Below, piece after piece: positions 13,422 through 37,761 of a stretch of 43,440 nucleotides of DNA. Source of the stretch: a virus; IMG/VR virus record IMGVR_UViG_3300017720_000014, positions 1-43,440 of that record; one strand, given 5' to 3'. How positions within the stretch are numbered: the stretch's first letter is position 1; each line of letters opens with the position of its first letter. Below the pieces are notes generated by a model, which saw only the letters and a program-made list of their open reading frames with translations, was not told the origin of the DNA and made no database searches. A program made the translations under genes and the position numbers.

Positions 13422-13760
13422 TTACCTTGTGACTCCTACTCTAACTAGGATCATACCCTCAACGACCTTATATTTGTAACCAGATGCGTCGCTCAAAAGA
13501 ACATCATATACATAACGGCCAGGTTTTATTTCAACTGTTTCAGTCGAACCCAAAGAAATTTGAATTTGACCTTCATCAGGGTCGGTAATTGTAGATGCAA
13601 AGGAAACAGATGTGGTTGATCCAGCCCACTTTCTCATTTGGGATGTACAAGTGTAGTTATTCAGGTTCAAAAATGTTCCTGTGTCACTATCACCCAAGCT
13701 AAAACCGTGCTGAAAATCTACACCAGCTTCTATTTGAAGATTTGCAATGTAGACGGCCAT
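13422..13760 (-). CDS. Small beta-rich virion protein, 112 aa
   Basis: A 112-residue protein of beta-strand character. After the N-terminal MAVYIANLQIEAGVDF it has the pattern LNLNNYTCTSQMRKWAGS, then DPDEGQIQISL, then PGRYVYDVLLSD. The order 'x-L-x-x-Y-x-x-x-x-Q-hydrophobic-R' followed by 'G.i.i.l' and 'G.Y.YDv...d' resembles phage baseplate-associated beta-sandwich proteins of the BppU N-terminal kind. This is a pattern resemblance only. It stands between two coiled-coil genes and the fiber, suggesting an accessory fiber or baseplate part. The ATG at 13760 follows a short gap after the 55-aa gene. Confidence 0.8.
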   Translation of the reverse strand: MAVYIANLQIEAGVDFQHGFSLGDSDTGTFLNLNNYTCTSQMRKWAGSTTSVSFASTITDPDEGQIQISLGSTETVEIKPGRYVYDVLLSDASGYKYKVVEGMILVRVGVTR

Positions 13761-13957: not shown

Positions 13958-14166
13958 AATTTACTTGCTATTTTTGATAACATATCTTTTATGTCAGATA
14001 TGTCTTTCTTCATATTATCTATCTCTAATCTTTCCATCTTTTTTTGGGAGTTTCTTTGCTGGTAAGCAGCGAAAGAGGAACTATCAGTATTAATGATAGC
14101 TCCTGTGTTTTTATCTCGACAAAAATTAGGATGTCCTTCAACTGGGATTAACGATGATTTGGTCAT
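13954..14166 (-). CDS. Small coiled-coil protein, 70 aa
   Basis: A 70-residue protein. The N-terminus (LIPVEGHPNFCRDKNTGAII) looks like a short structured segment with one Cys; residues about 40-70 form a coiled coil (RLEIDNMKKDISDIKDMLSKI). The start overlaps the stop of the 2,443-residue gene as ATGA, and its own stop overlaps the next ATG the same way, so this small gene is inside a coupled series. I recall the phrase VEGHPNFCRDKNTGAI from cyanophage small proteins, unnamed. Virion or assembly role by context only. Confidence 0.8.
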   Translation of the reverse strand: MTKSSLIPVEGHPNFCRDKNTGAIINTDSSSFAAYQQRNSQKKMERLEIDNMKKDISDIKDMLSKIASKL

Positions 14167-17100: not shown

Positions 17101-20100
17101 GGTGCAAATCCAAAGAACGCTCCTTGTGCTTGCTCACAGAGTCCAACAGTATCAATATTTAAAACTGTTGATGCTTGTGAATATCCATTTGGTAATGTAG
17201 AACTTGGGTCATATGGATTAATGTCATATGTTTCTGTAGGATTAGAGAATGGTCCTTTCTTATGATTTGGAGCAGCTAGTCTAAATTCAAAGGCAGTTGC
17301 ACCAATAGTTCCTCTAATCGTTTCTCCAATCTGGAATGATCCTGTAACATTAAATACTTCTAAAAGTTTAGGTATAACATCTATACCGCCAATGTTGTCA
17401 AAGAATGGATAGAAATTAGTAAGTGCTTTAAGACCTACTGCAGAAAACTCTACATTTCTAGAACGACAGAATGGATCAAAATTTTCTTCTGCAATAAATG
17501 TATTTTCAGAACGAATATCATCTCTTTGTACAGTTCTACCAACTTCAGCAGTTGTTACCGTTGCAGATCCACCACCATTACCTTCACGAGTTACTGTAAA
17601 GTTAGCAGCAACTTGGTTGTTAAAGACAGTAATACCAATAGTATTTCTGATAACATTTTGTGTTCTTCTAGTATTGATCCAATTATCAACAGATGGAGTT
17701 AAACGAACTTCTCCAGTGTATGCAACAACATGGAATGGGTTGATGTTGTTTGTTTTAGTAGCAAAATTCTGCTCAATATAAACTTCATCCTCATATTTTA
17801 GAGTAAGAAGATTACCAGTTTTTTGTGTATTTGTGTCATCAAGTAAATCAAAATCAGTACTGTAATCTAATTGCTGCACTGATACATCTGTCTTAGGAGC
17901 AACTTGTAAGTTAACAGACTCAAATTCTCTCATTGGTCTAAGTTCTTTGAGATCTACATCAATCTCAGCAGGAGAACTTGCTGACATGAAATCGTAACTA
18001 CTAAATGAATCTACAAAAAATCCTGATTTGAATCTATCAAAACCTTGAGCATCTCTAATTTGGAGAGCTTCTGCACTCTTTTCCAAAAGATTCAATGTAG
18101 TTATCTCTTCTAAATTCTTAACCCTATCAGCAATTTTGCCGATATCTTTCATAGTATATCTACGATTCTGTTTTAAAAATACTCTTGCATCTTCTATATT
18201 CTTAAGATATGCAGGAAGAAGAAGCGTAGCAATTTCAATACATTTATCTTGTGATTCTGGGGGTAATGGTTGTCTAGAAGGTGTACCTCTCAACAATAAG
18301 AACTCACCGTTTTGATGTAAAACTAATTTGTCTATTCTAGGAAGATAATAATTATAGTCAAATACAACTGACTCATTAGGTGTTAAAAGTCTATCTGGTT
18401 TTCCAGTAAAATCTCTAGAAGTATAGAAGAATGGAGATACTGTAGCAGACGCTGGATCGTATACGGAAACCTGTGGTCTAAAATCTAATACATCATGTGC
18501 AGGAGTTCTTGATGGTCCTATTGATGGAATATCATTTTTATATCTTTCTGCACCGTAACTATTAACAGTAAATATATCTCCAGTATCACCACTAGGAACA
18601 TCATATCTGTTGTATATGATTAATACTTTTCTATGAGGAACAAATGCTCCAGAGTTTCTAACAATTCTAGAATAATCATAGTACTGATTCTTTTGTCCTT
18701 TGTCTAGCATGTAACTGCTAGTAATATCATTATACTTACCAGGTGTTGTTGCTTGAACTGTAGCAACAGCAGTTGATTCTTCAAATTCTAATAATTCTAA
18801 TAATGTAAATTTGTTATCGGTAAGATATACAATATTAATCTGATTATTACCAGAATCAATAGAGACTACTCTAGCGATTGCTTTACTAACCTTTCCTGCA
18901 ATTTTTTCACCAATAATTGCTTCAGTAAAAATATCATCAGTAGATGTGAATGTTATTTTATCAAGTACAGGTGTGTTAGTGTCTAAAGACTCATAGACTG
19001 CAACAATATCAGTAGCATCTGGATAGTTTAAACAAATTTCTTTATCTTGAACTCTAACACCATATAGAGCACTATGATTCAATCCATCGTTAATACTAGT
19101 TCCAGCATTAGTTCCAGATCTTTTATTTGCAGATCTTGTAATTTCTGTTTGTTGACATCTCTTAAATTCTTTAACTTTGTTTTTAATATTTGATTTTTGA
19201 ACAGTAACATTTACTCTAATATTACTCTGACTTGGATTCAATCCATATAATGTAATACTAGTTCCAGTTATTATGATTTGATCTTCAGTAATAGATTGTA
19301 TAGTTCCATTTGAATATGCCACAGAATATCTTTCTTGATCAAAAGCAACAAAAGTTACATCATCAAGATTGACTGAGGTTATTGGAAGAACTAATTGACC
19401 CAATGAATTACTACTTTCATTAGTTACTTGAGAACTAAGGAATAGAGTAGAATCACCAAAATCTACATTAGAAACTCCTATATCTGGAATTCTAGAAATT
19501 AAAGATGAATTCTGTAATGAAACATCCTGTACACCTCTATATCCAATACCATCAAATGCTTTTACTCCACCATCAAACACATCGGTAACAGTTGTCATTG
19601 TACCGACTTTCATTGTTTGTCCATCAGCAGCAACTTCTAGAACAACATTACGAGTAGGAACATCCAGAGCAGCACCTGCTGTATTTGCAGCAGCACCGTA
19701 AGTAAATATATCACCTGGTTTCCATACTAGGAAACTGTCTGCCCTTGGAGAAGTAACTGTACCATCAGAAGCAACATTAAATTGACCGTTTCCAAAACCA
19801 GTAGGAATTACTTGATTTAATTTTTTAGTAGCAGTGAAACTATTTCCGCTTTGAGCAAAATCATATACATCATTAATACCATAAGCAGTTATTTTCTCAA
19901 TAGTTCTTGATACAGTTTCGTCACCATTAATACTAATTTTTTCACCTTGTCTAAAAGTTCCTGAAGTTTGAGTAACTTGTATGCTGCTAGATCCAGCACC
20001 TGCAATAACAGCATATCCTTCAGCACCACTTTCTTTACCAACAATATATCCAGATTGATTAAGTTCTGATGCACTTACATTATCATTTAATTTTAATGAT

Positions 20101-21494
20101 GTATATGTTTGGATATCATAAAGATATAAGTTCCAATCAGTTGAATTATTTTCATATGCAGCATCTCTTAATGAGAATCCATATACCTTTGCATCACCAA
20201 TTTTCTCAGCAGTACCAGCAGCAGTTGCACTCCCACCAAGAGGACCTCCCATTAATTCTATTCTATTGGTAAGTGTAGTAATACCACTTACATTGTTGAC
20301 GAGGAACTTATTCCCCATTTCAAAATTAAATGATTGATTCTCAATTTTTTGAGTTTCTCTTGGTTTATCAAAATCAATTATACTAGGAGCAGTTTTATCA
20401 ATATCATATCCATAAACATATGCTTTACCAGCAGTTACTTTTAAACACGCAAGATCATCATCTGGTTCGTTGCCATCAAATGTAGTTTGTCCTTGATAGT
20501 ATATACCATCATTACCAAGACGATCATTGAGACATTCAGCCATGTTAACCATGAATGGATTAACAACATAGTTTCCAGACTCATCATAAGTCCTTTTAGC
20601 AAAATAATCTCTGATCTTATTATATTCAGTATCTCTTTTTAGTGAATATATTGCACCTTCTTTAACTCTAAGTACCTCTACAAAATCAGTATCATCAAAA
20701 TCTGTAATTGTTTTCTTGGCTAATGTAAGTTTTATTTGCAGTCTATCAGCACCTGGTGCTGCAAAGTTAGAAAATCCTTTTGCATTATCATATAAACTCT
20801 CATCTCCCTTCGCACTAACAGCAGTTTCTATAACCTGTAGACCAACCCTAAATGATGGAGACTGATTGTATTGATCTAATATAATTGTTTGCTTATTTAC
20901 TTTTACAAATGATCCTCTAATAAAATAAACACCATCGTCAATAGAAGCTGCAGAACCTGTAGTACATGCATTTAATGCTATTGTAGATGCAAGAGTTCCA
21001 CCAGCATTAATTGTTGTATTACCATAAGTTACTGATTCTTCTGCAACAAGAATTTCACCATCTGTGAAGAATGAAAAATCTCCAGTAGAAGATGAATTAA
21101 TATATTTTACATAAAAAGTATCGTAATCTCTATCTGATTGTGTAGCAGTAATATAATTAATTACTTTTGCAGTAACTCCGCTATTTTGTCCCTTAAATCT
21201 TTTTCCTATTACATTATTAGCATAGACAGAAACATCAGTACCTAAATGTGTTGGATTAACTTGAACAGCATAATATTGTCCGTCAAATGTTGTTGAACCA
21301 GGAATGACTAATGCACCCTCTTTAAACATATGACTACCATAAGTCTCTATCTGATTTTGCAGAATAGATTGCAAAGTAGATAGTTCCCTAGCCTGAACTG
21401 GAAAACCAGGTTTGAATAGGACACGATGATAACCTTTACTAGGATCAAAATCGTCGTAATAGGGACTTACATTAAGATTAGTCTGTTGTGGCAT
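14163..21494 (-). CDS. DUF4815-type baseplate/tail structural protein, 2443 aa
   Basis: A 2,443-residue structural protein at the T4 gp9-gp12 position. The N-terminus (NLNVSPYYDDFDPSKGYHRV, then KPGFPVQARELSTLQSILQN) is the DUF4815 signature of myovirus baseplate-associated proteins. At about residues 1583-1592 there are ten consecutive prolines, followed by an Asn/Arg/Thr-rich segment (NNTRVIDRTRTVV) likely to form a trimeric stalk, and then the phrase RDPLAQSI found in many phage fiber-attachment proteins. Later parts hold GxGY repeats and a C-terminal beta domain with DGDGVGDQI, a possible calcium-binding loop. It probably connects the baseplate with side fibers. It starts four bases after gp8 ends and ends in an ATGA overlap. 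Confidence 0.88.
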   Translation of the reverse strand: MPQQTNLNVSPYYDDFDPSKGYHRVLFKPGFPVQARELSTLQSILQNQIETYGSHMFKEGALVIPGSTTFDGQYYAVQVNPTHLGTDVSVYANNVIGKRFKGQNSGVTAKVINYITATQSDRDYDTFYVKYINSSSTGDFSFFTDGEILVAEESVTYGNTTINAGGTLASTIALNACTTGSAASIDDGVYFIRGSFVKVNKQTIILDQYNQSPSFRVGLQVIETAVSAKGDESLYDNAKGFSNFAAPGADRLQIKLTLAKKTITDFDDTDFVEVLRVKEGAIYSLKRDTEYNKIRDYFAKRTYDESGNYVVNPFMVNMAECLNDRLGNDGIYYQGQTTFDGNEPDDDLACLKVTAGKAYVYGYDIDKTAPSIIDFDKPRETQKIENQSFNFEMGNKFLVNNVSGITTLTNRIELMGGPLGGSATAAGTAEKIGDAKVYGFSLRDAAYENNSTDWNLYLYDIQTYTSLKLNDNVSASELNQSGYIVGKESGAEGYAVIAGAGSSSIQVTQTSGTFRQGEKISINGDETVSRTIEKITAYGINDVYDFAQSGNSFTATKKLNQVIPTGFGNGQFNVASDGTVTSPRADSFLVWKPGDIFTYGAAANTAGAALDVPTRNVVLEVAADGQTMKVGTMTTVTDVFDGGVKAFDGIGYRGVQDVSLQNSSLISRIPDIGVSNVDFGDSTLFLSSQVTNESSNSLGQLVLPITSVNLDDVTFVAFDQERYSVAYSNGTIQSITEDQIIITGTSITLYGLNPSQSNIRVNVTVQKSNIKNKVKEFKRCQQTEITRSANKRSGTNAGTSINDGLNHSALYGVRVQDKEICLNYPDATDIVAVYESLDTNTPVLDKITFTSTDDIFTEAIIGEKIAGKVSKAIARVVSIDSGNNQINIVYLTDNKFTLLELLEFEESTAVATVQATTPGKYNDITSSYMLDKGQKNQYYDYSRIVRNSGAFVPHRKVLIIYNRYDVPSGDTGDIFTVNSYGAERYKNDIPSIGPSRTPAHDVLDFRPQVSVYDPASATVSPFFYTSRDFTGKPDRLLTPNESVVFDYNYYLPRIDKLVLHQNGEFLLLRGTPSRQPLPPESQDKCIEIATLLLPAYLKNIEDARVFLKQNRRYTMKDIGKIADRVKNLEEITTLNLLEKSAEALQIRDAQGFDRFKSGFFVDSFSSYDFMSASSPAEIDVDLKELRPMREFESVNLQVAPKTDVSVQQLDYSTDFDLLDDTNTQKTGNLLTLKYEDEVYIEQNFATKTNNINPFHVVAYTGEVRLTPSVDNWINTRRTQNVIRNTIGITVFNNQVAANFTVTREGNGGGSATVTTAEVGRTVQRDDIRSENTFIAEENFDPFCRSRNVEFSAVGLKALTNFYPFFDNIGGIDVIPKLLEVFNVTGSFQIGETIRGTIGATAFEFRLAAPNHKKGPFSNPTETYDINPYDPSSTLPNGYSQASTVLNIDTVGLCEQAQGAFFGFAPTNMVLRGLTSGAQASVARVRLVSDNFGDLIGAMWIRDPNATPIPQVRIRSGNRDFKLTSSETNATPLPGSTLISSGIGRFLATGTTRLVQTDVRITTLETTTVTNLSTIDIQRSDPLPPPPPPPPPPVIINNTRVIDRTRTVVNNITRVIQRTNTIIRERDRDPLAQSIITGPEGAWITKLDVFFSQVTSGTTPVNIQIRTVELGLPTLNIIHRNAMVTLRPSDITTSTDGSVATTIVFPSPVYLEPSSQFAIVLLSDSDEYEVFCGEMGQKALNQQTLPSAQGKIYSQQFAMGSLFKSQNGSTWTPSQFEDLTFKLYRAKYTANRGLLTFFNPPIEPNNSQVPPLNFNPITGLPKKAKIGITTTTNAGLIGTVFTQGRKISESNQSHRYAFVDDQGGPVDGTIGILTGGTGHGTPTNPVSTYNITGDGSGLTLNVTVSAGLSAITAATVVNDGNGYKVGDIIGLATAGTGNAGSGARVAISSISGVDTLYLTNVQAQEFDVTSNDLTYVHSTGSVIDSGLDIWQYDEQGGNYTGEYLKVDHRNHGMYGTGNKVIISDAKSDVLPTELSVDVASNETSISIASTSQFAEFEGAVVSAANTGYAFMNSEIISYTSVGISSLGGVVRGSNGTNALNHIKGDVVTKYELNGISLTRINTEHSVETSQVGIDEYYIKIDRGTSRGTDDNTNNIPQLSVAEEASGGGNSVYASKNIQYDAVRPLLQATTFGSTDFLSLQLRSISGTSVDGGEASFVDAGFENIGLNRINQLESTRIIAARVNESNKLGSITRSKSHTITVELDNGGDDYNSPTVDLEGASSLFYENRLNAPITDYLTDPRAKQRFNDPHASYYMSNPIYIKNPATSLKVIFDSRRPPTTDFRVLHSTLRADSSEVTPGFELFPGFLNLVDIDGDGVGDQIIDPKNNSGLPDLFIPPDDTVYREYQYTVDNLPSFTGFQIKIVFTGTNQSKYPVIKNLRVIAVA

Positions 21495-21498
21495 CTTC

Positions 21499-23070
21499 TT
21501 AGAATTCTAATACGATTTTGATGTCTTCTTTTTGGCGTTCATTTCTTGTAATAGATGGTCTATTATCAAGGTAAATAATTTCACCTGTTCTTTTATTTAT
21601 CTCAGGTCCAGCAAGACCACTTGTAAACTGTACGCCAAGGTCTACAACTTTACCAGATGGTGTAGTTGTTGAGATTCCAGAGAAACCTCCATCTATGTTT
21701 ACACTGAATCCACTAGAGATGACAGCATCACCAGCAGCAGTAAAATCAACAACTTTTGCATCTCCACCAACACCTATGTTATCAGTTTGATCATATAATG
21801 AAGGGTGAAGATAAAGATTCCTATCTTGGAAATACTTGATTACTGTTGTATTCACATCATATGAAGCAACATAACCTCTGGCAGTTCCAACACCAGGTAT
21901 ATTTTGTGTGATTTCTGAACCGACTGCAAGAGTCTGTGTAAGATCACCAGAAAATTTCAAAGCATTAGCTGCGGAATATTCTGATGTGTTAAGAACAGAA
22001 GTAGATCCAGCACCAGCAGCAACTGGATTCTTAACAACTCCTACTTGAGAGAATGTTGTGTCCGAAATAAAATCATATGTAGAATTATCAAACCTAGTAT
22101 AAATCAAAACTTTATCAGTTCCTAATTCCTTATAAAGATCAAATCCATGACCATTAGAAGGAGGAATAATCGGTGTTAATTTAGCAAACTTTGTAGCACT
22201 ACCATTAATAGAAGAAAGATCAACCCTACCATAACTGTAACCTTGTCCTCCTGCAGTCACTTTTGCATAAATTAATTGACCATTGGTATTGGTCTGAACT
22301 CGGACTTTACCCCCAGTTCCATCACCTAGTATATCAACTTCTATCGGAGATGCAAGGAAGGAATAACCCTCACCTTGAGCATCAATAGAAACAACTTTAA
22401 TTTGATTGTTATTTACCGTAGAATCTCCGTTATCTCGAACCACTTTGACTTCATTCTCAGTGCTTGATGACCATTCGTTAGGAACAGCAACATACTCAGT
22501 AGAGTCAAATTTTACAATATCAGCAGGAGGAACCGTAAATAGATACTTCCACAAATAACCGTCGCCACTGACACCAGCAGCAGATGGTTCAAGATCAGTA
22601 AATGTAGGTTCATCAAGAGATGCACCAGCAGTAGATGTAATACCTGCAGATCCGTTATCAATGCAAATATAGACTCTAAAGTCTTTATTGATTATGTAAA
22701 AGTTTGCAGAATAGAGTCTACTAGAGTTAGAAACTAGTGATCTATTAGTTACATCATAATCATGACGGTACATATCATATGATGTACCTTTTGTCCATTG
22801 AACTTTTCTTACTAATCTACGAACATCACCTGGTAAAACTTTTCTACCAAACATCATCGTATCGTATACATGGTTTATGTAACTAATACTATCTGTTGGT
22901 GATGGTGGTTGAACAGTTGTACTATTCCATGTACTTGTTCTTCCATATCCAGTTTCTGTTGGATTAGCCAGACCCAAAAAAGTATAATAGGAGTTATTAC
23001 CACTAATTACCGATTCAACGAAATTATTAGCATTAATGATCCTAAACTGGTCTGTGATAATTGCGGCCAT
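21499..23070 (-). CDS. 8: Baseplate wedge protein gp8
   Basis: A 523-residue baseplate wedge protein (T4 gp8 is 334). The N-terminal half matches the gp8 family layout: ITDQFRIINANNFVESV, then a segment YYTFLGLANPT, then VYDTMMFGRKV, then VRRLVRKVQWTKGTSYDMYR, then FRVYICIDN and YLWKYLFTVPPADIVKF. In T4, gp8 joins gp6, gp7, gp10, gp25 and gp53 in the wedge. The extra length is a C-terminal beta region with GxGY-like repeats (GEGYSFLASPIEV, GQGYSYGRV). A perfect late promoter stands 34-41 bases upstream, inside the end of the giant gene, so gp8 can be expressed apart from it. No clear Shine-Dalgarno sequence. Confidence 0.9.
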   Translation of the reverse strand: MAAIITDQFRIINANNFVESVISGNNSYYTFLGLANPTETGYGRTSTWNSTTVQPPSPTDSISYINHVYDTMMFGRKVLPGDVRRLVRKVQWTKGTSYDMYRHDYDVTNRSLVSNSSRLYSANFYIINKDFRVYICIDNGSAGITSTAGASLDEPTFTDLEPSAAGVSGDGYLWKYLFTVPPADIVKFDSTEYVAVPNEWSSSTENEVKVVRDNGDSTVNNNQIKVVSIDAQGEGYSFLASPIEVDILGDGTGGKVRVQTNTNGQLIYAKVTAGGQGYSYGRVDLSSINGSATKFAKLTPIIPPSNGHGFDLYKELGTDKVLIYTRFDNSTYDFISDTTFSQVGVVKNPVAAGAGSTSVLNTSEYSAANALKFSGDLTQTLAVGSEITQNIPGVGTARGYVASYDVNTTVIKYFQDRNLYLHPSLYDQTDNIGVGGDAKVVDFTAAGDAVISSGFSVNIDGGFSGISTTTPSGKVVDLGVQFTSGLAGPEINKRTGEIIYLDNRPSITRNERQKEDIKIVLEF

Positions 23071-23111: not shown

Positions 23112-26100
23112 GAAGTTTGGGCAGAGCTCCTGTTCCCCTATGCCCAACACCCCTTCGTAAAACTAGAGGGAACTTGCTAAGTTCATTGTCATAAGACAAT
23201 CCCTTGACATCAAGAGCAATAGGAGATCCTGCTCTGTTTACATCGCCAAATCTTCCCCAAGTGAAGTGAGCGTAAGCAAATCCAGTGGATCCTACGCCAA
23301 CCATATCACTAGTGTCAGTGTATGATGCTATGTTAGCAGTAATGATGCCTTGACGACCACCATTACGGTAACTAATTGCACTTGCATAGTAAATATTATC
23401 TCCATAATATGTGCTGATAGAAACTATATCAGTGTCATGCGTATCAATACTTGTTATAGCAATTCCTGCTGTATTAATACCTGTTCCATATAATTTGAAT
23501 GGATAGTTTGTTGAGAATCCTGTTGCATCATTACCATTGTTAACATAATCTTGATTATCAATTAGAATCTCAAGTGCCAAATCAGTACCGATACCAGCAG
23601 TAGTTCCTATACCAGTAACCACACCTATGTATCCAGCAACATCAGCAACTAATGGTTCTATACCAGATAGATTTTCAAAATTAACACCAGTGGCAGCAGT
23701 TGTACCAAAACCAACAGGAGCAATAGCAAGTAAACCAAACGATTCTGTTAGTAAACCATCAGTATCTTTAAAGTTGCCAACAGTATCTACAAAAACTGCA
23801 GTATCTGTTGTAGAAAGAACTCCAATAATATTTCCAATAGGATTGATTTGAGCTTCATATGAATCTCTTGCTTTAGAAACTAAAGAACCATCAATAAACA
23901 AATCTCCCTTCTGCTTAATCCATGTCATAGGTTTGTAGTTATCGTTACTAACACCTGGACCTTGATAGAATGGAGTTTCTACCGTAGCAGCACTATCAAT
24001 TCTCTTGATAATTCTATCTTCAATTTGTGCAAAGTTTGACTGATCTTTAGTAACTTTATTGAACTGCATTTCAGCACTCTTATCTAATCTTAAAGCGTCA
24101 CCTTTCTTGATATTTTCATTAATATCAAATATGAAACTATCTTGTCCTATTGTTCCTCTGTAGAAGAAGATAACAACATTATCATTTACAGTTGGAGCAC
24201 TAGAGAATTCTATAATAGAACCACCAGTAAAGACATAGTTTAAATTTGGTTCTTGAAGTACTCCGTTAATGAATACTAATAGAACAGTAGATAAATCAAT
24301 TTCAGTAGAGTCTTGATCGTTTCTGTCAATTTCAAAACTGACCAACTGTGACTGATAGAATAGTGGGAATCTCATCTGATTTCCATCTTGATTTGGTTTG
24401 ATGTTATCAAGATAATCAATATTACCAAACTGCCAAGAAGCAACTGTATCAGTAAAGACTTCTATTACTTCTAGTTCAAAGTTTCTAAAGTTATCACCTG
24501 CTTTAGGATCTGTAGAAAGACCAGCAACAGTAAATACATCTCCACGCTTAAATCCATATCCTTTCTTACTAAACTCCCAGTTAGAAACTTCAGCAAGAGT
24601 TGATCCAATACCAGTGGCAGTTTGAATACCAGATATTTGAACACTAACAGAACAACCAACACCAGTTTCTGTTCCACCACCAATTCTTGATAATCCAACA
24701 ATAGGTAGATTTTCACCGTTTGGTTCAGGAGCAAAGACGGAATCATATTCACCAGTGTATCCAGTTCCACCAGCACCAATACTGAATATCAAAGATCCAC
24801 CAGCACCAACAAGAGCATTAATTTCTGCATTGACTCCTTTAGTTGGAGATGACAATGCAATACCAATAGTTCCTAATCCAGTTTGATATCCAGAACCAAA
24901 GGATAGAGGATACCATTGAGCGACAGTACCACCTTGAACATAAGTATGCCCAATTGTGTTAGGTCCGACATTTACTTCAAATGTGCGAGCAGAAACAATA
25001 CCAGAGATAGGATATGCCTCATCGAAACTTGGGAATAGATTGCTTGTAACACCAACTTGAACTACTCCACCACCAGTATAATCATGCTGTAAAGTAGAGA
25101 CTCCAACGAATGTTTCAAATGATGTTGTTGTTCCAACAGATCTAACTTTAAAGTGATAACCAAATTTTCCTGTTGGATATGTTTTAGTACCATATGCACA
25201 AGTAACACCTATACCTCTCAATTTTAAACTTTCGGGAGCAACTAATCCATGATTCTGAGCAGTAAATCTAACAATACCAGTCTCAGGATTATATACTGCA
25301 TTTGATACAGTTAAAGCAGCACCTGCCCAAGAATCGATATAAAGTGTGCTAGAAGCAGCACTTACAAATCTGTGTTCAAATCCACCACCAGTTCTAATCG
25401 CTCCAGTTGATGCATTGGCAAAAGTATGAGCATAGTTTCCACCACTAATAACTGCGTTTGATGCTTCATGACCTGCCATGATATCATAACGATGCTCACT
25501 AGTATCAGTTGAAATACCTGCTTGGAAAGTAACAGTTCCATTTTGTTTTCTAATACCATTTGCTACTGAACCAGCAAATCTATGAACATATTGATCACCA
25601 GTATTAGTCTTACCAACATCTATAGCAAATGAATTTACTGTTGTACTTGCAACCGCTACCCAATCACCGCTAATTGGATCGGTAATTCTTGGATATAAAT
25701 GAGGGGTAACATAGTTATCTTGTGAACACTCAAGTTTAATTGAATTATTCTCGATAAGAACATAATTGCCGTTCATCATTCCATGACCAGTAGCAGTTAC
25801 TGTCATAATACCTGCAACAGGATCATAAACAATATCTTCTGCAGTATCTAAAGTATATCCAGCAGTAATTTTAATTGGTTGGTCAAATGATCTATCACGC
25901 TTCTGATCCATACTACCAACACCAGCACTAACGAATGTATGGTTGTATGCACCGCCACCAACAATTACTGATCTAGTAATACTATTAGGTGTTCCTGATA
26001 CAAAAGTATGTGTGGCATTGTCATATGACTTCATGCCATTGGTTCTGAATGTATTAGTAGTTACATTAGAAACTTTAATCCATGTATTATGATAAGGATC

Positions 26101-29100
26101 TTTAGGTCTAGGATATCCACAAACTTTTTGATTATTATCTCTAGTACATGTGAAGTTAACTGATCCATCATCAAACTTGACATAATCACCATTTGAAAGT
26201 CCATGATTATTGACTGTAACAGTCATAATACCAACAACAGGATCATAAGATGCACTGATTGGTGTTAACTTATCATTTGGAACATGATGATGAGTTGATA
26301 CATTACTTGATGGTTGAGTTGGTAGTATCTGGAATGAAATAGTACCTACTGTAGTAGAAGCAATAGAGACTGCAGTATTATAACCAACAGTATCAGTTGA
26401 CCTTGGATAATAATGTATACTCTGGAAAGTATCAAGACCACATCTAAATGCTAATGATTCTGGAGATATTCTTATGCTAGTACCAGTCATGAATTCATGA
26501 TCAGGTATACTAACTGTCACAATACCAGCAGTGGGGTCATAGACAGCACTAGAGATAGCAAAAGGTTGTATAGGTGACTTACCTACATTAACAGCAAATG
26601 ATGTTGTTCCTATGCCTGTAATTGGTACCCACTTACCACTGTAAGGATCGGTTGATCTTGGATATGATTTGGTAGATGTTCCACCATCCATATCGCAAGT
26701 AAACCTTATAGAGTCGTTATCAAATTTTACAAAGTCTCCATCATGTATTAAACGACCACCAGGAATTACAGTAACTGTCATGATACCAGCAGTAGCATCA
26801 TACTGAGCACCATTAATAGTTTGTGTATCAATAATATTGCGTGGATATGTATGAGTTGAAATATAATTGTCTGTCTCACATCTAAAGATTAGAGAACCTT
26901 CTTTCAACTTAATAGAAGTTCCATCTTTAAGAGGATGTTGTCCGATAGTAGCAGTTACAATACCTGTTGATGGATTGTAAGTTGCAGTAGTAATACTATA
27001 ATTAACAATAGGAGAAGTTCCTACAGTTATGGCAATACCTGTTGCAGTAGTAGATGCAACGGAAATTGCTCTGTCAAAATATGGATCAGTTGTTCTAGGA
27101 TATGACTTAGTAGTGGAAAGACCATCCATCGCACACTGGAAATTGATTGATTCTTGATCAATCTTGATACTAGTTCCAGACATAATATTATGTGACCCAA
27201 TAGTCACTGTCATGATACCAGCAACTGCGTCATAAACAGCATCTACTGGTGTATATCTTACCTGAGTTGATATACCAACATTTACATCAAATTCATCTCT
27301 GGTTACATTCCTAACTTCTAAGAACTTATTGTTTGCAGGATCAGTAGATCTTGGATATGTATGATTGGTTCTATAACCATCCATATCACAAGTAAAGGTC
27401 AATCCATCAGTTACTATACCTACTAAATTTGGATCAGTAAATCCATGTGTAGAGTCTGTAATTATTGTAGCAATACCAACAAGATGATCATATACAAATG
27501 ATGTTATACCGAGAGTTGTTATTCCTGAGATGTAGTCAGAACAAGTAAATTCTAAACCAACTAACTTAGAAAAATCTTCAACTCCAAATCTATGTACTTT
27601 TGCAGTAGATACAGTTGCAAGTCCAGTTGTCTTATCATAATCCACACTTTCGATATCTATGAAATCACTAGTTGTTGGTATACCAGTAAAACCAGTGATA
27701 GCACCATCTTTACCAGTAGTTACTTGAATCTTAGCACCTTTAAATGGAGCATATCCTTGACCTGGTGTGGATGCAACAGAAATTATGATGCCACCTCTAG
27801 GTAGTTGATTCTGGTTAATATCACCTTCATCTATTATTAGATCAGTAAATCCAAACGAACTAATACCTGTATAGTTAACACTAGCAATACCTCCAAGACT
27901 TTGTTCAATAATCTTGAAGTTTGCAACACCTTCATTGTTCTCACCAAATGGTGCTTGGAACATACTGTTAATAAACAGAACTCCGTTACCACCAGTTGAA
28001 CCAATACCAGTTACAGCAACACCTGTAGATGTTAGTGGGAATATATTTTCTAAACCATCAAAACCATCTGAGTTGTCATCAAATACTTGGTTAGTTGCAT
28101 AATCTTGTCTTAAGTAAGTTCTTCCACTAAATGTTGCTCTAGGAGTAAGAAGATTACCAGCATCAATAATACCCAAGTCACCACCAAGAGGTGCTTCTGT
28201 AAAATAGATATCACTATCAACAATCTGGAAAGCACCTCTATAAATTCTTGCAGTTGATCCAGCAGAATGCACTGTTGCTGCACTACCGACTGAACCTCTT
28301 TCTATTTCAACAAGACTCCAAGTTCCAATACCAGTAATAGGTCCTGTAGTTGTGCTACCAAAACCAACTGTTTGAACAATATTATATTCATCATCTATTT
28401 TAAGTAAATCGCCAGATGTTATTGTACTTAATCCACTTAAAGCAAAGCAAGTAACAAAACCGTTAACAGCAACATCTAAGTCGTATGTTACTGATGTATG
28501 TGATAGAGGTTTCTGTACTAATCCATTAAGAGTAATCATGGATTTAGAATCTCTCTTATCCATTGTAAACTTGTGAAGGTTACCTTGACCTTTATCTTGT
28601 GCAAAAGTAACTGCTTTACCAACTCTAGCATCAGTAATTGATGTGGAGATAAAGAATTGATTATTATTAGATTTTACAATAAAACATTCACTTGGAAGTA
28701 CAGTTGATCCATATCCAGTAGAATACTCTAAAGAACTGGCAGCAATTCCAATAATATTAGAATCTGGTAGATATGATACTTTTTCTGTATTAGAGAAGAA
28801 ATGTTTTAATGTAATAAGTCCTGTTTCTTTATTAATCTCATTAACATTTTGAGGGTTAAATGCTCTTTGGTAAATTGGAGTACTTTGATACTTTAATCCA
28901 AACTTTCTAAGGTTTCTATTGTTTATACCCAAGTAAGTATTTTGAGTTTGATTTTCAAATACTTGTCCATAGTTAAATGATCCAATACCAGCAAGAAGTC
29001 CATTAGGATCATTTTGTTGATATATTATCTCATTATAAGAGAAGATACTAACAATACCTGTTACTCCTGCATCTGGATAGAATTCTAGATTAACTTGGTC

Positions 29101-32100: not shown

Positions 32101-35100
32101 ATCCGCACGAAGTTGTTTTTCGGTATTTGCTAGTTGGAATTGATCTGCGTCAATCTTTAAAACATAATATGTTCTTTGTTCTAATCCAGCAGGAAGTTGA
32201 GATGGATCTCCACCAGAACCATACATTAAAACTTTAAATCCTGTATCTAAAGCATGATCCTCAACAGTAAATATACTAGTTGTGGTATTAACTCCGCTTG
32301 TAGGAATATCTAAAGGATTAATAACTGTATAACCGTCAATCAGTTTAACCGTTGCTCTTGTAGAAGTACCAATACCAGTAGTCAATCCTGTTTTGACTAT
32401 TAAATCAAATCTATCATTTTCTTCTAAACCATGATCTTCAGTTGTTTGAATAGTTACCTGACTTCTTCTAACAGTTGCAGTTTCTTGTTTATAGTTAGTT
32501 ACTACTGAATAATTTGCCTTATCATCACCTGTTGTAGTAAAGAACAGAGCAGGACCGTCTGTATTAGTTTTAAGACCAATAGTATCAGGTGATTTATTGA
32601 TAACATAAAAATCACCACTCAAAGCACTTGGAGCAGTATACGGACTTATGGAATCAGTAGCAAAAAGGTCAGTATTACCTCGTTTGTCGAAGGTGACCTT
32701 AGCATTAGTTTTAAGACCATGATTAGGTAAATGTATAGTTTGTGCAAGAATAGATCTTTGTTTAGTAACTCCGTTAAGAGATACATCAACACTAGTCGAG
32801 ATTCCAACCGTTGTTCCAACACCAACAGATTCTTTAGGGTTAAAATAGATTAAATTCTGAAAACTAGAGTCAAAAGGATTTGTCTCTACAGGAACTGTGA
32901 ACTCACTAGTAAAGTATGTAACAGCAGATCCTACTGCAGCAGTAGTAAAACCAGCATATCTTTCTATTCTAACAATTTTTTCATTAGGGAAGAAACCAAG
33001 AATACGAGCAGTTTCTGTACCAATACCAATAGAGTCACCTACTGCAACATTATCAGGAACAAAGTCAACTCTTAGATCTGTAATAATACCAGTATAACCA
33101 TTATCTGTCAAAGATGCGGAATAACTTGCAACTGCAATCTTTTTAAATCCTTCTAATCCTTTAATATAAGTTGATATGCCAGTTACTCTTACAGTATCTG
33201 ATCCTTTAAATTCATGATACGGAGTTGCTTTGAAAACAACACCCTGTCTGGTGTGTTTGATAGGAAGATTTGATAATGTAATTACAGAACTACTAATATT
33301 ATCAATTGGTTTTCCGTGAAGTTTCTTAACTTCTGCATCTAGACCAACACCATTTGTGCCTGTATTATCAAAAATTACTTTCTCACCAATACTGTATCCA
33401 GAACCTCTACTTAAGATATCAATGGTTTCTACAGCACCTTGCAATAGATTGCTTGGATTTGAAACCTGATTATTAGTTCTATATGGTTGGAACAGATAAT
33501 CATAACTAACACCATCTCCAAATAAGTTATATGGTTGTGTATTTCTTACAAGTTCTGAATTATTAAAGTCAAAAGTAACTTGATCTAGTAATTTACCTTT
33601 TACAGTATTTTCTTCAATAGCAAAAGATCTATATGTGTCACCAACAAAGAATGGGAATTGGGGATCATTTAAAAGATCTACTGTGGCAAAATACGCATAG
33701 ACTCCTTGAGGGAAATCGGGAGTTTTAGTAAACCTTCCATTATGTTCGTCTAAATCTCCGTTTCCAGTGTAGACATAATCGTCTATAAAATATCCATATG
33801 GGAATAATGATGAAGGAGGTCTATTTTCAATATTGGTCGCTGATATATCATAACTAGATACCATCTTCTTAACATCAGACTGAACACTATCAACATCAAC
33901 AGATCCATAAGCACCGTATATTGGATTTCCATCATATGCCCAACCAATGATAGGAGAATGCCCTGTTCCATCATCTGCAAAGAAATTTCTAATAGTATTA
34001 CCGTATCCAACAATGTTAAGTGCTAGACCGTCTCCAATTGGTTGTAGGAAGTCCATTTCGGACTGATTCAAGCGATATGCCTTATTAACAGTTAAACCCC
34101 TTACAGTCGCTTCTGCCTTAAACTCAGAACCAACAGGCACAACATTAACACTAGTATTAGTTGCTGCATATCCAACACCGCCAGATATAACTTTAACATC
34201 TGTGATTGAACCACTATCATTTACAATAGCTCTTAAGATTGCACCTTGAGATGTAGTTGCTACACTAACCACATTGAGATCAGGAGGTCCTACATAACCA
34301 CTTCCTCCATTCGCAACAAATGCATCAGTAACACTACCATTTGCAACAACGATACCAATCTGACCCAAATTTCCTGTAGGGACACTAATGATAGGTGGAT
34401 TTGGGAAATTTAAAATTGTGGATCCATAGTTTGAACCTTGGTTATACACTAAAATATCATCAATCTGTCCCTTAACAACTGGAGTCGCTGTAGGTTCTTT
34501 TTCTTGTTGATCTTTAGTTAATACTTTAACTTTACATACAATTGGCGGATATTTGAAAAGGTGATATCCAGAACCAGCACCCATAGAGTCTAGGTATACA
34601 TTCTGACGATTAACATAATTTGTTTCCGTTGCCTCTCTATCGCCTTTGTTACCTGCTTCCGCAAGTCTAAACTTATCGTCGTCTATCTTTAGTACTTGAT
34701 ACTGTTTCGTTGTACTGAGACCTGTTATGACAGCGTTTGTGCCATTTTCATACTCAACTACTTCTCCATCTGTAAGTCCATGATTAATAAACTCAACAGA
34801 ATCATTAAAAGTATTAATTCCAACTGGTTTTACTAAAATATTTCTATTTGCGTAACCTGAACCAGTATCTTCTAAACTAATTCTACTAATAGTGCGTTTT
34901 TTATCAAAAGTACGGAAAATATGAAGACCTGCGTTACTTGCAGCAGCATTTTCTTCAATTAATATTGTATTAATACCAATAATCGAATCTTGCTTATTAT
35001 TATGAAGAGTAAAGTCTTTTGAGTTAATAACATTAATATAATAATCTTGACCACCAAATAATGTTAAAGTATCATTAACTCCTCCTGTTGTAGCAACACC

Positions 35101-37761
35101 AATGTTGGTACCACCGTTATTATCGTATACAAGTCTATCTCCAGTTAAGAAGTTATGATCTTTATTAAGATTGAATGAATTATAAGTTGAACTAACATCA
35201 CCACCAAGATTAGTGCTAATACCATTAAAAAATACTTGTCTAAATCGTTCTTCAACTAATGCTCTACCAATAGCACCACTACCATTACCACCATAAATTT
35301 CTACGCTAATAACCTTATCAAGGTCATAGTCAAATGGGTCAATAAGAATACTTGATACAATTCCGCTTAAAACTGGAACTGCACCTGCAGTATTTCCGAT
35401 ACTAACAGTTTCGTCAGTAATAGTGATGTTTGGAGGTGCCTGAACATCATAACCTGCACCACTGTTTAAAACATTGAGTTTATTTACAGGACCGTAGAAG
35501 AGTGTATCCGCACCTTTATAGTTTAATATCTCAATACCATTCACAAGCATTCCTGTATTACCATCTACGGTAATTTCGGAAGTAGTTTGACCTTCTTTAC
35601 CGCTTTTGAGTTGCTGCTCTAAAACATATCTTTTTATAGGTCTTGCAGGGAAGATATTCCTTTTTCCTTGACTAGCAAGTATAAAATCATGTCTACCTGT
35701 GGGTAAAGTTGGTGCAACAAAGAATGATGGTAAATTTGCTTTAATAAAAGAACGAGATGGATATAATTTTATTTTATTTTTTGAACTTAGTACTTCTACA
35801 AAATAACTTGGAGAATCTAACGCACCAATAACCTGTGTTCCTGGTTCTGGTGCATATATGATTTCATCTCCAGTTTCAAATGGAACATCTGCTGCAAAAG
35901 AAATAATACTATATCTGTTTTCTACACTATCGTATCCTTCCCAGTTTCCAGAAGCAATAGAAGGATTTATCAACTCCGCATGAATTCTATCAGAATCTAT
36001 AGTGTAACTAGGAAGAGAACTAGAAGCAACATAACCTTCTCTCTTTGATGATGCTGATTTAGACTCATCTACGATATATGCATTATTAATATCTGTTAAT
36101 AACTGTTCTTGTCCACCTTTTACTGGAACAATTGAAGATTTTACTTTATTTTGCAATCTTCGCACATCATATAATAAAAGAGGGTCAAGAGTAGGAATAC
36201 TACCGTCAAGACTGATAGATGAAGCAGTTGTATCAATACTATCAACAATTAGAGAGCTAGCAACAAGAACTTCGCTGTTTCTACGCAAAATTTCAATTTT
36301 ATCACCAACTTTTAAACTGCTTTTTTCAATAGTACCAACAAGGGTAAATATAGATCCAGCAAAACTTAAAATTTCGTATCTAGTAGATGTATTGTAAACC
36401 CAACTATTAAAAAACACCTCTTCATAGGATTTACTGATAACTGGGTTGGCAATATAGCGTCCTAAGTTCTTTACCTTGATAGCCGAGGTAGATTTTAAAT
36501 TTCGGAGAGGTCTGCTAGTATTAAATTTAGAAAGTACACCAGTTAGACGCATTTCTACCTTTTTAGTAGAATCTCCACCCTCATACCCATAAACAATGTT
36601 AAAAGTAGATACTGTACTGTTGTTTGGTATCTCTATACTAACTGGAGGAGCAACATCAAAGAATTGATTGATGCTTTTTGAGTCATATGTAAATGTCTGA
36701 TAAAATGATGTGCCAATTTCACCAACTTTGATTGTACCAGTGCTAGAAAACCCAATTGTAGAATCTACGGTAATAACAGACGCACCAATACCAATTATTC
36801 CAATATTACTACTTCGTCCAGGTACTACGAAGGTACCATCAGTCAAACCTCGTTCATCAAAACCTGTAAAGAGAGAAAGTTTAAAATAATCGTCTCTAAT
36901 TAGCGATACTTCAGAAATAGGACCTGACGCTTCGTTTAATTGAGGGTTTGTTGGATCATTATCTTGGAAAAGTGTCTGACCAACTAATTCTTGAGGATTA
37001 CCAGATATTAATTGAACAGAAACAGTCTTTCTACGCAAATAATTCGCAAAAGATGGTTTTATTAGATATTTCTCTAAATCATTGATTTTTGGATCAACTC
37101 CAAACAGTGCTTTGAAAAGAATTTTAAAAGATGCACGAGTTCCCTTTGCTTCATATAAACTTCTTGCTTCTTTTATGAAATTATTAACATCTAACTGAGG
37201 TGAAAGCGTTACTCCCTCTAAACCAGGAGCATACATCGCTTTTAAATTCTTATAAAATTCTTTTAAGAATAAAGAACTAAGATTTACTACATTTGCACCA
37301 GTAGTATGAATTCCAGCAATAGTTTGTTGCCATACTAATTCATCTGGGTCGTTTTGTTTGGAAAATGTAGAGATTCCACTAAAACCACGCCAAACACCAG
37401 TAAAACTATTTGTAGTTACGCCACTATAACTGCATATTTCATTATCGATCTGAAAAAGACCATATTTTTGAGGATATCCATCAGTACTATCTACTGTAAC
37501 TGTAGTATCTGTTGATGAAATAGTACCAACAAGTGTAGTTGTACCTCTTATTACATCAGTAGTTAAATTATCAACTTTAATATACGCATCAATATTCTCC
37601 GCAATGTCTGCAGGTCCACCTTGGAAGTCTTGAGAGATATAATACTGTTCTAAGAATTTGGAGAACAGAGGATTCTCTGACTTAGCAAATTCTGGTATAA
37701 TTTCGCTAACGACTTGATAAGTTTTTACCCTAGGACTTAAGGGAGAATATGTTTCGATCAT
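23107..37761 (-). CDS. Giant baseplate wedge protein at the gp7 position, 4884 aa
   Basis: A single uninterrupted 4,884-codon gene between gp6 and gp8, where T4 has gp7 (1,032 aa). The first 265 residues (EFAKSENPLFSKFLEQYY, KEFYKNLKAMYAPG, ARSLYEAKGTRASFKILFKALFG) are compact and look like the conserved wedge part. Afterwards come many 'GxGYxxxP' repeats, several 'HGL..GD.V' modules, a YHYH-like domain (about 1265-1375; SPIIGWAYDGNPIYGAYG, DEHNGRF, GVYAYFAT), eight 'YDP..GIMTV...FxC..D...YPR' modules (about 3425-4235), and near the C-terminus an 'FINGVLQEPNLNYVFTGG' fiber-type domain. It starts one base after the gp6 stop. The gp7 assignment rests on position; the repeats suggest a large surface appendage fused to the wedge. 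Confidence 0.87.
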   Translation of the reverse strand: MIETYSPLSPRVKTYQVVSEIIPEFAKSENPLFSKFLEQYYISQDFQGGPADIAENIDAYIKVDNLTTDVIRGTTTLVGTISSTDTTVTVDSTDGYPQKYGLFQIDNEICSYSGVTTNSFTGVWRGFSGISTFSKQNDPDELVWQQTIAGIHTTGANVVNLSSLFLKEFYKNLKAMYAPGLEGVTLSPQLDVNNFIKEARSLYEAKGTRASFKILFKALFGVDPKINDLEKYLIKPSFANYLRRKTVSVQLISGNPQELVGQTLFQDNDPTNPQLNEASGPISEVSLIRDDYFKLSLFTGFDERGLTDGTFVVPGRSSNIGIIGIGASVITVDSTIGFSSTGTIKVGEIGTSFYQTFTYDSKSINQFFDVAPPVSIEIPNNSTVSTFNIVYGYEGGDSTKKVEMRLTGVLSKFNTSRPLRNLKSTSAIKVKNLGRYIANPVISKSYEEVFFNSWVYNTSTRYEILSFAGSIFTLVGTIEKSSLKVGDKIEILRRNSEVLVASSLIVDSIDTTASSISLDGSIPTLDPLLLYDVRRLQNKVKSSIVPVKGGQEQLLTDINNAYIVDESKSASSKREGYVASSSLPSYTIDSDRIHAELINPSIASGNWEGYDSVENRYSIISFAADVPFETGDEIIYAPEPGTQVIGALDSPSYFVEVLSSKNKIKLYPSRSFIKANLPSFFVAPTLPTGRHDFILASQGKRNIFPARPIKRYVLEQQLKSGKEGQTTSEITVDGNTGMLVNGIEILNYKGADTLFYGPVNKLNVLNSGAGYDVQAPPNITITDETVSIGNTAGAVPVLSGIVSSILIDPFDYDLDKVISVEIYGGNGSGAIGRALVEERFRQVFFNGISTNLGGDVSSTYNSFNLNKDHNFLTGDRLVYDNNGGTNIGVATTGGVNDTLTLFGGQDYYINVINSKDFTLHNNKQDSIIGINTILIEENAAASNAGLHIFRTFDKKRTISRISLEDTGSGYANRNILVKPVGINTFNDSVEFINHGLTDGEVVEYENGTNAVITGLSTTKQYQVLKIDDDKFRLAEAGNKGDREATETNYVNRQNVYLDSMGAGSGYHLFKYPPIVCKVKVLTKDQQEKEPTATPVVKGQIDDILVYNQGSNYGSTILNFPNPPIISVPTGNLGQIGIVVANGSVTDAFVANGGSGYVGPPDLNVVSVATTSQGAILRAIVNDSGSITDVKVISGGVGYAATNTSVNVVPVGSEFKAEATVRGLTVNKAYRLNQSEMDFLQPIGDGLALNIVGYGNTIRNFFADDGTGHSPIIGWAYDGNPIYGAYGSVDVDSVQSDVKKMVSSYDISATNIENRPPSSLFPYGYFIDDYVYTGNGDLDEHNGRFTKTPDFPQGVYAYFATVDLLNDPQFPFFVGDTYRSFAIEENTVKGKLLDQVTFDFNNSELVRNTQPYNLFGDGVSYDYLFQPYRTNNQVSNPSNLLQGAVETIDILSRGSGYSIGEKVIFDNTGTNGVGLDAEVKKLHGKPIDNISSSVITLSNLPIKHTRQGVVFKATPYHEFKGSDTVRVTGISTYIKGLEGFKKIAVASYSASLTDNGYTGIITDLRVDFVPDNVAVGDSIGIGTETARILGFFPNEKIVRIERYAGFTTAAVGSAVTYFTSEFTVPVETNPFDSSFQNLIYFNPKESVGVGTTVGISTSVDVSLNGVTKQRSILAQTIHLPNHGLKTNAKVTFDKRGNTDLFATDSISPYTAPSALSGDFYVINKSPDTIGLKTNTDGPALFFTTTGDDKANYSVVTNYKQETATVRRSQVTIQTTEDHGLEENDRFDLIVKTGLTTGIGTSTRATVKLIDGYTVINPLDIPTSGVNTTTSIFTVEDHALDTGFKVLMYGSGGDPSQLPAGLEQRTYYVLKIDADQFQLANTEKQLRADPPEVVGFTSVGYSGQTINPINPPVTVFRENNIVFDLNDPSLLGAKLKFFYDRNNFNEYVGTGSTANLEVVGVGTVGIGTTNPPDLPYKQINYSDSLKNTLYYAIEKGGYITTSETDVLYGNEIKYADSGYNAKQYIATGVAGTVFTANIGAEPEKDHYTQEDCAELYYSHTGAAATGGISQIRIINGGFGYQRLPAVTSVGSSGISAELELFGTDINLLGDVSVPTDVYGYPSDGTLNPDAFLPRILLIKNASKVLSASVLFGGRSYLNAPALAVFDKTTGEIVTNGLLTAELSDTAVNKVNVIVEPRGLTGNDYGIAPLRNSNGISIIEAFSDVGVLTCKITTPILGYDTEPFTIGESVFLEGIDFTAGTGDGFNSGDYKFIDFQIADYNSAVNPRQVTFTYTGLSSNPGIGATVVTGFGQIVKSGDLARFDATKTFSEFRTNEPLRRNSDLFTDLIMTDIDVNTGIMVVSGSINLQIDDKLLGTNSGDVCEVQAITEFDGYFEIASTIDTNVGWADNIGLIGDNNQFLPDNDYYQNMSYAIESEKTYEELITYVNDIVHPAGFKNFANTQILAKGNAGDTFIPAADAGGLVLDFVSDPLRVDSIYNFDIARDANSADNLSKFIELQQTRLADFILCKTNRVLLHDDISSQFISNESNDLSDSRVIAATIAGRYFSRYLVQTIHEAQDPAKNHFQLNELILISCNDDTFLVQKSALNNTNQVGLATGYGEFFAQYNINNGQTQVRIKPYEPFDTNYDIKAFQQGFADAVGTGQTELGNAEVRSVNISVGSGTTTDIVGINTVNLAGVHGHIVVINKNSNKVDYHEVVLQHDGVDTYLTEVGAFNNRQSLGGLSSPQFMGTFTSSIDTGAGGVVKLKYVHSEANSIDLRCKFLNFNPVGYGTTSVKHFNIPFTPEGSERSGRIVVGSSATTGIATVCGITSFTDLSFKSTVSVSYGSTQTFHQIYVLSDPVKVDTFLSQGPIAAVGTTTGIGTFGAEFSGDQVNLEFYPDAGVTGIVSIFSYNEIIYQQNDPNGLLAGIGSFNYGQVFENQTQNTYLGINNRNLRKFGLKYQSTPIYQRAFNPQNVNEINKETGLITLKHFFSNTEKVSYLPDSNIIGIAASSLEYSTGYGSTVLPSECFIVKSNNNQFFISTSITDARVGKAVTFAQDKGQGNLHKFTMDKRDSKSMITLNGLVQKPLSHTSVTYDLDVAVNGFVTCFALSGLSTITSGDLLKIDDEYNIVQTVGFGSTTTGPITGIGTWSLVEIERGSVGSAATVHSAGSTARIYRGAFQIVDSDIYFTEAPLGGDLGIIDAGNLLTPRATFSGRTYLRQDYATNQVFDDNSDGFDGLENIFPLTSTGVAVTGIGSTGGNGVLFINSMFQAPFGENNEGVANFKIIEQSLGGIASVNYTGISSFGFTDLIIDEGDINQNQLPRGGIIISVASTPGQGYAPFKGAKIQVTTGKDGAITGFTGIPTTSDFIDIESVDYDKTTGLATVSTAKVHRFGVEDFSKLVGLEFTCSDYISGITTLGITSFVYDHLVGIATIITDSTHGFTDPNLVGIVTDGLTFTCDMDGYRTNHTYPRSTDPANNKFLEVRNVTRDEFDVNVGISTQVRYTPVDAVYDAVAGIMTVTIGSHNIMSGTSIKIDQESINFQCAMDGLSTTKSYPRTTDPYFDRAISVASTTATGIAITVGTSPIVNYSITTATYNPSTGIVTATIGQHPLKDGTSIKLKEGSLIFRCETDNYISTHTYPRNIIDTQTINGAQYDATAGIMTVTVIPGGRLIHDGDFVKFDNDSIRFTCDMDGGTSTKSYPRSTDPYSGKWVPITGIGTTSFAVNVGKSPIQPFAISSAVYDPTAGIVTVSIPDHEFMTGTSIRISPESLAFRCGLDTFQSIHYYPRSTDTVGYNTAVSIASTTVGTISFQILPTQPSSNVSTHHHVPNDKLTPISASYDPVVGIMTVTVNNHGLSNGDYVKFDDGSVNFTCTRDNNQKVCGYPRPKDPYHNTWIKVSNVTTNTFRTNGMKSYDNATHTFVSGTPNSITRSVIVGGGAYNHTFVSAGVGSMDQKRDRSFDQPIKITAGYTLDTAEDIVYDPVAGIMTVTATGHGMMNGNYVLIENNSIKLECSQDNYVTPHLYPRITDPISGDWVAVASTTVNSFAIDVGKTNTGDQYVHRFAGSVANGIRKQNGTVTFQAGISTDTSEHRYDIMAGHEASNAVISGGNYAHTFANASTGAIRTGGGFEHRFVSAASSTLYIDSWAGAALTVSNAVYNPETGIVRFTAQNHGLVAPESLKLRGIGVTCAYGTKTYPTGKFGYHFKVRSVGTTTSFETFVGVSTLQHDYTGGGVVQVGVTSNLFPSFDEAYPISGIVSARTFEVNVGPNTIGHTYVQGGTVAQWYPLSFGSGYQTGLGTIGIALSSPTKGVNAEINALVGAGGSLIFSIGAGGTGYTGEYDSVFAPEPNGENLPIVGLSRIGGGTETGVGCSVSVQISGIQTATGIGSTLAEVSNWEFSKKGYGFKRGDVFTVAGLSTDPKAGDNFRNFELEVIEVFTDTVASWQFGNIDYLDNIKPNQDGNQMRFPLFYQSQLVSFEIDRNDQDSTEIDLSTVLLVFINGVLQEPNLNYVFTGGSIIEFSSAPTVNDNVVIFFYRGTIGQDSFIFDINENIKKGDALRLDKSAEMQFNKVTKDQSNFAQIEDRIIKRIDSAATVETPFYQGPGVSNDNYKPMTWIKQKGDLFIDGSLVSKARDSYEAQINPIGNIIGVLSTTDTAVFVDTVGNFKDTDGLLTESFGLLAIAPVGFGTTAATGVNFENLSGIEPLVADVAGYIGVVTGIGTTAGIGTDLALEILIDNQDYVNNGNDATGFSTNYPFKLYGTGINTAGIAITSIDTHDTDIVSISTYYGDNIYYASAISYRNGGRQGIITANIASYTDTSDMVGVGSTGFAYAHFTWGRFGDVNRAGSPIALDVKGLSYDNELSKFPLVLRRGVGHRGTGALPKLL
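25070..27480 (-). repeat. Eight coding modules of the YPR type in the giant gene
   Basis: Eight related segments of about 55-140 residues each: a first half 'VYDPxxGIMTVTxxxHxxxxGxxIK' and a second half 'SIxFxCxxDxxxTxxYPRxxDP'. YPR triplets are seen in seven of them; the last (near 25070-25310) is degenerate with YPT. Between copies 6-8 shorter 'HTFVSAG/HRFVSAA' segments also repeat. One further copy is in the fiber gene near 9350-9610. Boundaries are approximate. Confidence 0.87.

Follow-up and report, generated by a model that had tools for sequence, protein, structure and literature searches.

Two described protein families come closest to the repeated module analysed here. The End_beta_barrel family (PF12195), found in the endosialidases of phages K1F (EndoNF) and phi92, is likewise a small beta-barrel of a phage tail protein; it is also nested in a larger fold, and contributes a sialic-acid site. 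The E1_FCCH family (PF16190) is a single-copy part of a eukaryotic enzyme, in which the same fold serves protein contacts as well. The phage module differs from the former in occurring in long tandem arrays or as a fiber insert, with an added Cys/Asp/YPR hairpin, and from the latter in being arrayed in virus tails; its conserved cysteine is matched to no particular E1 cysteine. Few marine viruses are as abundant as the T4-like cyanophages, and most of their giant tail proteins lack annotation. The same module is contained in PHROGs 1276 (unknown function), 5342, 701, 18802 and 2885, which are whole-protein clusters with neither a domain description nor a function established by experiment. In the part of the literature covered, we found neither this module nor phage FCCH domains described; the module is absent from NCBIfam, and in Pfam it scores above no curated cut-off.

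The tail gene block and its module copies

The window, i.e. the whole 43,440-base viral record analysed here, carries a T4-like tail block on its minus strand (Table 1), which also encodes a head-tail adaptor, head-closure proteins and a tail sheath stabilizer. By gp6, the closest isolates are Synechococcus phages (55-57% identity). Head-closure, gp8 and gp7-like proteins in this block also share a second short repeat, GxGYxxxPPxVxI-like (P0006 aa 224, 309 and 363; P0001 aa 768 and others; P0004 aa 233). The giant gp7-like protein contains a YHYH domain, and the LamG/concanavalin-like part of the fiber also resembles module-bearing giants of other phages. From the names of their families, we infer that the module-bearing proteins are located in the virion. 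Proteomics of S-SM1 virions detected 41 structural proteins, 18 of them hypothetical (PMC3037559), which fits, as a general match from another phage, with such giants being virion parts.

Eight modules in the giant protein and one in the fiber had been proposed in a preliminary description, and HMM coordinates and scores bear this out: within 25084-27498, the giant has six full copies, one truncated copy and one degenerate copy. The preliminary description had also named beforehand the observation that would speak against a building block common to two virion proteins, namely a fiber copy without significant profile similarity to the others. Searched against the 301 ORFs of at least 40 aa, a profile of the eight giant copies, with the fiber copy left out, recovered the latter at E=4.5e-18 (59.4 bits), while 1000 shuffled fibers scored 10.5 bits at most. 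This result is not circular, since no fiber sequence entered the profile that was then applied to the fiber, and the sharing of the module between the two proteins is thereby upheld.

The six full giant copies are 30-49% identical to each other. The copies cluster with those at the same position in relatives with arrays of about two-thirds identity, and the giant array is therefore old. Copy number in the giant varies among relatives: g7 is absent from three of them (L018-L020), and another (L025) has an additional copy ahead of g1, placed near the fiber type.

Table 1. Tail genes, barrel modules and associated elements of the window.
Feature	Position	Strand	Evidence or remarks
gp25-like	39688-40086	-	
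gp6	37763-39682	-	
Giant gp7-like baseplate wedge protein, 4884 aa	23107-37761	-	PHROG 2885 baseplate wedge subunit
gp8	21499-23070	-	
2443-aa protein	14163-21494	-	function unassigned
Tail-fiber-assembly protein	13422-13760	-	
Fiber protein with LamG domain, 2373 aa	6086-13207	-	PHROG 13163/1469 baseplate wedge subunit, PF13385
Giant copy g1, H-type	27259-27498	-	HMM 106.5 bits
Giant copy g2, K-type	27004-27240	-	HMM 115.1 bits
Giant copy g3, stops after YPR	26836-26985	-	HMM 70.6 bits; 50/80 positions
Giant copy g4, K-type	26566-26808	-	HMM 110.0 bits; Arg at HGL His position
Giant copy g5, H-type	26311-26547	-	HMM 103.2 bits
Giant copy g6	26020-26253	-	HMM 117.9 bits; Cys at H/K position, giving two Cys across the hairpin
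Giant copy g7, H-type	25600-25833	-	HMM 116.1 bits
Giant copy g8, degenerate	25084-25299	-	HMM 68.4 bits
Possible half-length remnant ahead of g1	27538-27642	-	HMM 7.9 bits, weak
HTFVSA-like elements, five, between g6 and g8	25327-26019		giant aa 3915-4145
Cys-less FCCH-like HGL barrel in giant	34657-34797	-	HGL HMM E 5.6e-14
Other five Cys-less HGL barrels in giant	35761-35904, 34999-35175, 32566-32739, 32125-32271, 28642-28812	-	
YHYH domain in giant	33676-33969		PF14240, E 1.1e-23; giant aa 1265-1362
Fiber module copy	9368-9604	-	giant-copy HMM E=4.5e-18; AlphaFold2 model pLDDT 89
Inserted fiber cassette, ~114 aa	9356-9697	-	HTYNGGT element, AVNVQSGAESGNQKSPNG linker and barrel; empty site in homologues
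HTFVSA-like element ahead of fiber module	9638-9700		fiber aa 1170-1190
LamG/concanavalin-like domain in fiber	8093-8527		PF13385, E 7.8e-17; fiber aa 1561-1705

Predicted fold and known relatives

AlphaFold2, given 132 sequences, predicts a small all-beta barrel (pLDDT 89.3, pTM 0.75), in agreement with the defined fold for the module that had been suggested earlier; the ligand site suggested along with it is a candidate only. Its top match in the PDB is the FCCH of Uba1 (6dc6_C, residues 223-282; Z 5.8, 2.0 A over 57 residues), joined by the barrel of endosialidase NF (3ju4, residues 432-492; Z 5.8, 2.4 A over 60) and followed by phi92 endosialidase (Z 5.6); such values near 6 are middling, and a Z under 8 may reflect a common arrangement. 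We nevertheless trust them, because sub-threshold Pfam matches and the Cys-less HGL barrels described below indicate the same two families. Among sub-threshold Pfam families, these two, E1_FCCH and End_beta_barrel, occur most often over the 132 members, with best E values of 0.011 and 0.0092, respectively; the curated cut-offs of 29.5 and 35 bits are not reached by the Cys modules (g6 scores 15.8 and 14.7 bits, respectively). The sub-threshold E1_FCCH match runs through the hairpin HGLxxGDxV. A Foldseek search of the PDB with the module model gave no E below 0.3. An iota-carbonic anhydrase (7c5x) that appeared in a PDB profile search at E 8.9e-6 was rejected, this score being the sum of three stretches, each of them insignificant.

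Judged from the predicted structure, the module is thus very probably an all-beta barrel of about 80 residues with the E1-FCCH/phage-endosialidase-barrel fold. The preliminary description had known no name for it, and this holds at the level of the family, although the superfamily points to E1_FCCH and End_beta_barrel.

Barrels of the HGL type which lack the cysteine are also encoded in the giant gene (Table 1). For profile comparison, the cleaned HGL set of the second iteration was used, as iterations 3-4 picked up Cys modules. As a group these barrels match phi92 endosialidase by sequence (E 0.0022), and a member from Brevundimonas is the only domain to pass the Pfam cut-off for E1_FCCH (E 3.1e-11). 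Alignment of the Cys module with the HGL domains by hhalign gave a probability of 89% over 20 columns, mainly those of the first hairpin, HGLxxGDxV.

Conserved residues of the module

Over 153 non-redundant copies, the most conserved positions are Gly8 (99%), His17 (98%), Cys36 (99%), Asp39 (90%), His/Lys45 (91%, with Lys instead of His in 32%), Pro48 (100%), Arg49 (92%) and Asp52 (93%), and Tyr3, Phe34, Tyr47 and Val73-Gly74 are conserved as well. HMM matches and conservation together define an ordered signature of this Cys-barrel family, i.e. Tyr3, Gly8, His17, FxC..D, H/K-x-YPR, Asp52 and Val-Gly, from which g3, g4, g6 and g8 are exceptions within the window. The earlier statement that Cys, Asp and YPR are fixed needs to be narrowed: Cys is found in all nine copies of the window, and Asp and YPR are missing only from g8, which keeps His, Cys and Lys and has YPT in place of YPR. 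At position 45, His and Lys alternate along the window's array (H, K, H, K, H), but no such rule is seen over 28 non-redundant tandem pairs (HH 7, KH 6, HK 5, KK 2, the remainder incomplete or other).

His17 is common to the Cys-less HGL domains, in which no column has a conserved Cys (at most 9 of 59 rows). Since His is shared and Cys is not, we see Cys, Asp and YPR as additions to a known barrel; read from these alignments, the invariant His is a superfamily trait, and Cys, Asp and Tyr-Pro-Arg are the marks of this variant. One might alternatively see a metal or thiol module here, with His17, Cys36 and His/Lys45 as a metal site or with Cys cross-linking neighbouring modules or chains. Degenerate copies without Asp and YPR still keep His17, Cys36 and H/K45, and g6 has its second Cys at position 45, which would suit such a module. 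A metal ligand, however, would hardly be replaced by Lys in a third or so of copies, single-copy fibers offer no tandem partner for a disulfide, and His17, being present in Cys-less domains, may be only structural, so that we regard a metal or thiol role as improbable.

A cassette inserted in the fiber

The module of the fiber is part of an insert spanning K1171 to E1284, where close homologues have three residues. In fiber homologues whose flanks are 64-84% identical, ...RTIAYALSQISN runs almost straight into IGVNDILNIAAGVYEE.... At this site, 57 homologues are without the insert and 12 have it; 14 others were left unjudged, their contig or frame beginning too close. In a tree of the flanking domain, which is unrooted and includes seven distinct rows with the insert, these form one clade (95/96) nested among insert-free rows, which favours a single gain of the insert, at the same site, in one clade of fibers. 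Transfer between virion proteins is made explicit by the close homologues in which this site is empty. The transferred unit exceeds the module, as it includes a linker and an HTFVSA-like element besides the barrel, and it is almost certainly a mobile cassette. Copies of the HTFVSA-like element, about 21 residues long, also occur between g6 and g8 of the giant (Table 1), and 193 of 197 copies were found in module-bearing ORFs.

The giant array of contig 3300017902_000168 is 94% identical to that of the window and its fiber site is empty; the histories of giant and fiber are therefore separable among close relatives. The domain that received the insert may be a beta-helix, which is our reading of its sequence, and the pectin-lyase-like setting proposed earlier for the fiber copy is plausible. 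A Pfam scan of the fiber gave no match for a pectin-lyase-like or beta-helix domain around the module, and showed no propeller, the catalytic fold in which the barrel of endosialidase is nested.

Origin of the fiber cassette

The preliminary description had suggested duplication and transfer of a surface domain. Transfer is evident from the empty site, but the window's giant array does not qualify as the source: the fiber copy is 27-35% identical to the giant copies of the window, and 60-70% identical to its nearest kin, which are cassettes in gp7-like and tail-fiber proteins of other phages. Strings like AVNVQSGAESGNQKSPNG precede modules in 44 ORFs, including those of gp7-like giants and of tail fibers of about 700-930 aa, and this linker is absent beside the giant copies of the window. 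A cassette in the giant of another locus (L045) shares 71% identity with that of the fiber over 97 aa. In a tree of modules, fiber copies stand apart from the window's giant copies (support 94 for the wider group); with 80 columns, the deep forks of this tree are poorly supported, and our claim on origin therefore rests on identity and the shared linker. By these two measures, the donor is a distinct cassette lineage of other phages. That one of the window's own giant copies was duplicated into the fiber might be expected of members of one module family in the same genome, but in view of the lower identity, the missing linker and the tree position, weak as its deep forks are, we consider this very improbable.

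The DNA of the cassettes is about 70-73% identical, and the transfer is therefore not recent. No phage match to the fiber region was returned by Megablast. The exchange may have been an old one via the giant of a relative, as the extra copy of L025 falls near the fiber group.

Possible roles of the module

A combined explanation, to which we give an even chance, would be the following. A barrel of the FCCH type, elaborated by a hairpin and loop bearing Cys, Asp, His or Lys, and Tyr-Pro-Arg, would be used by cyanophages as an interchangeable bead of the virion. Gp7-like giants carry it in tandem arrays, and in fibers the cassette of HTFVSA-like element, linker and barrel would enter via a permissive loop of the receiving domain. 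Many such beads could provide multivalent, weak adhesion to a glycan of the host surface, with reach and rigidity as a by-product. Glycan binding is favoured because of the analogy to the endosialidase barrel and the lectin-type LamG domain of the fiber, and taken by itself it is a tentative candidate function, with somewhat less than an even chance. The protein contacts made through this fold in E1 speak against it.

Its main rival is a role as structural spacer, in which inert beads would lengthen or stiffen gp7 arms and fibers, like Ig-like decorations in other phages, with copy number setting length and sequence drifting freely outside the core. Relatives do differ in copy number (7 to 8, with or without an extra copy, as in L019 and L025), and in an AlphaFold2 model of a tandem pair both barrels fold (pLDDT 85, pTM 0.53) without fixed geometry, pair-level superpositions having an rmsd near 10 A; a structure search with this model returned only single-barrel matches. 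Conservation of Cys, Asp and YPR nevertheless goes beyond what a spacer seems to require, and a single copy in one fiber loop gives little extra length. A pure spacer thus appears rather unlikely, if clearly less so than a metal or thiol module.

Besides glycan adhesion, it is conceivable, at long odds, that the near-invariant Cys-Asp-His/Lys-Tyr-Pro-Arg hairpin is chemically active or specific for a ligand, at a site that each virion would carry many times. One example would be a bond to a group on the host surface that is reversible and covalent, or assisted by a metal. If so, cyanophage tails would bear many identical sites of a previously undescribed kind.

Distribution

The module was found 637 times in 103 ORFs, with up to 27 copies per protein, in IMG/VR loci and two contigs from metagenome bins; because eight of the loci derive from the window itself and some contigs almost duplicate each other, these are counts of sequences, not independent events. 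It is also present in 329 annotated phage records, all of them of cyanophages or marine single-cell viruses, in proteins annotated as gp7, tail fiber, short tail fiber or structural protein. The module thus constitutes a widespread cyanophage family without a name of its own, and its description offers a handle on hundreds of entries named "virion structural protein". Gp7-like proteins and fibers share one pool of domains, and the module shows how abundant ocean viruses assemble and remodel their tails. Closely related backgrounds on which the fiber either has or lacks the cassette represent a natural experiment on the effect of an added tail domain on host recognition.

The two binned contigs, assigned to Euryarchaeota (L100) and Dehalococcoidia (L101), carry giant tail genes of the cyanophage type with 27 and 8 modules, respectively; given these phage tail genes, the "archaeal" and "Chloroflexota" contigs are probably mis-binned. 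Loci of Tolypothrix and Brevundimonas have the Cys-less sister domain only, and one ORF of the cyanobacterium Tolypothrix (L104:4114-6876) encodes about ten Cys-less HGL/FCCH-like barrels in tandem.
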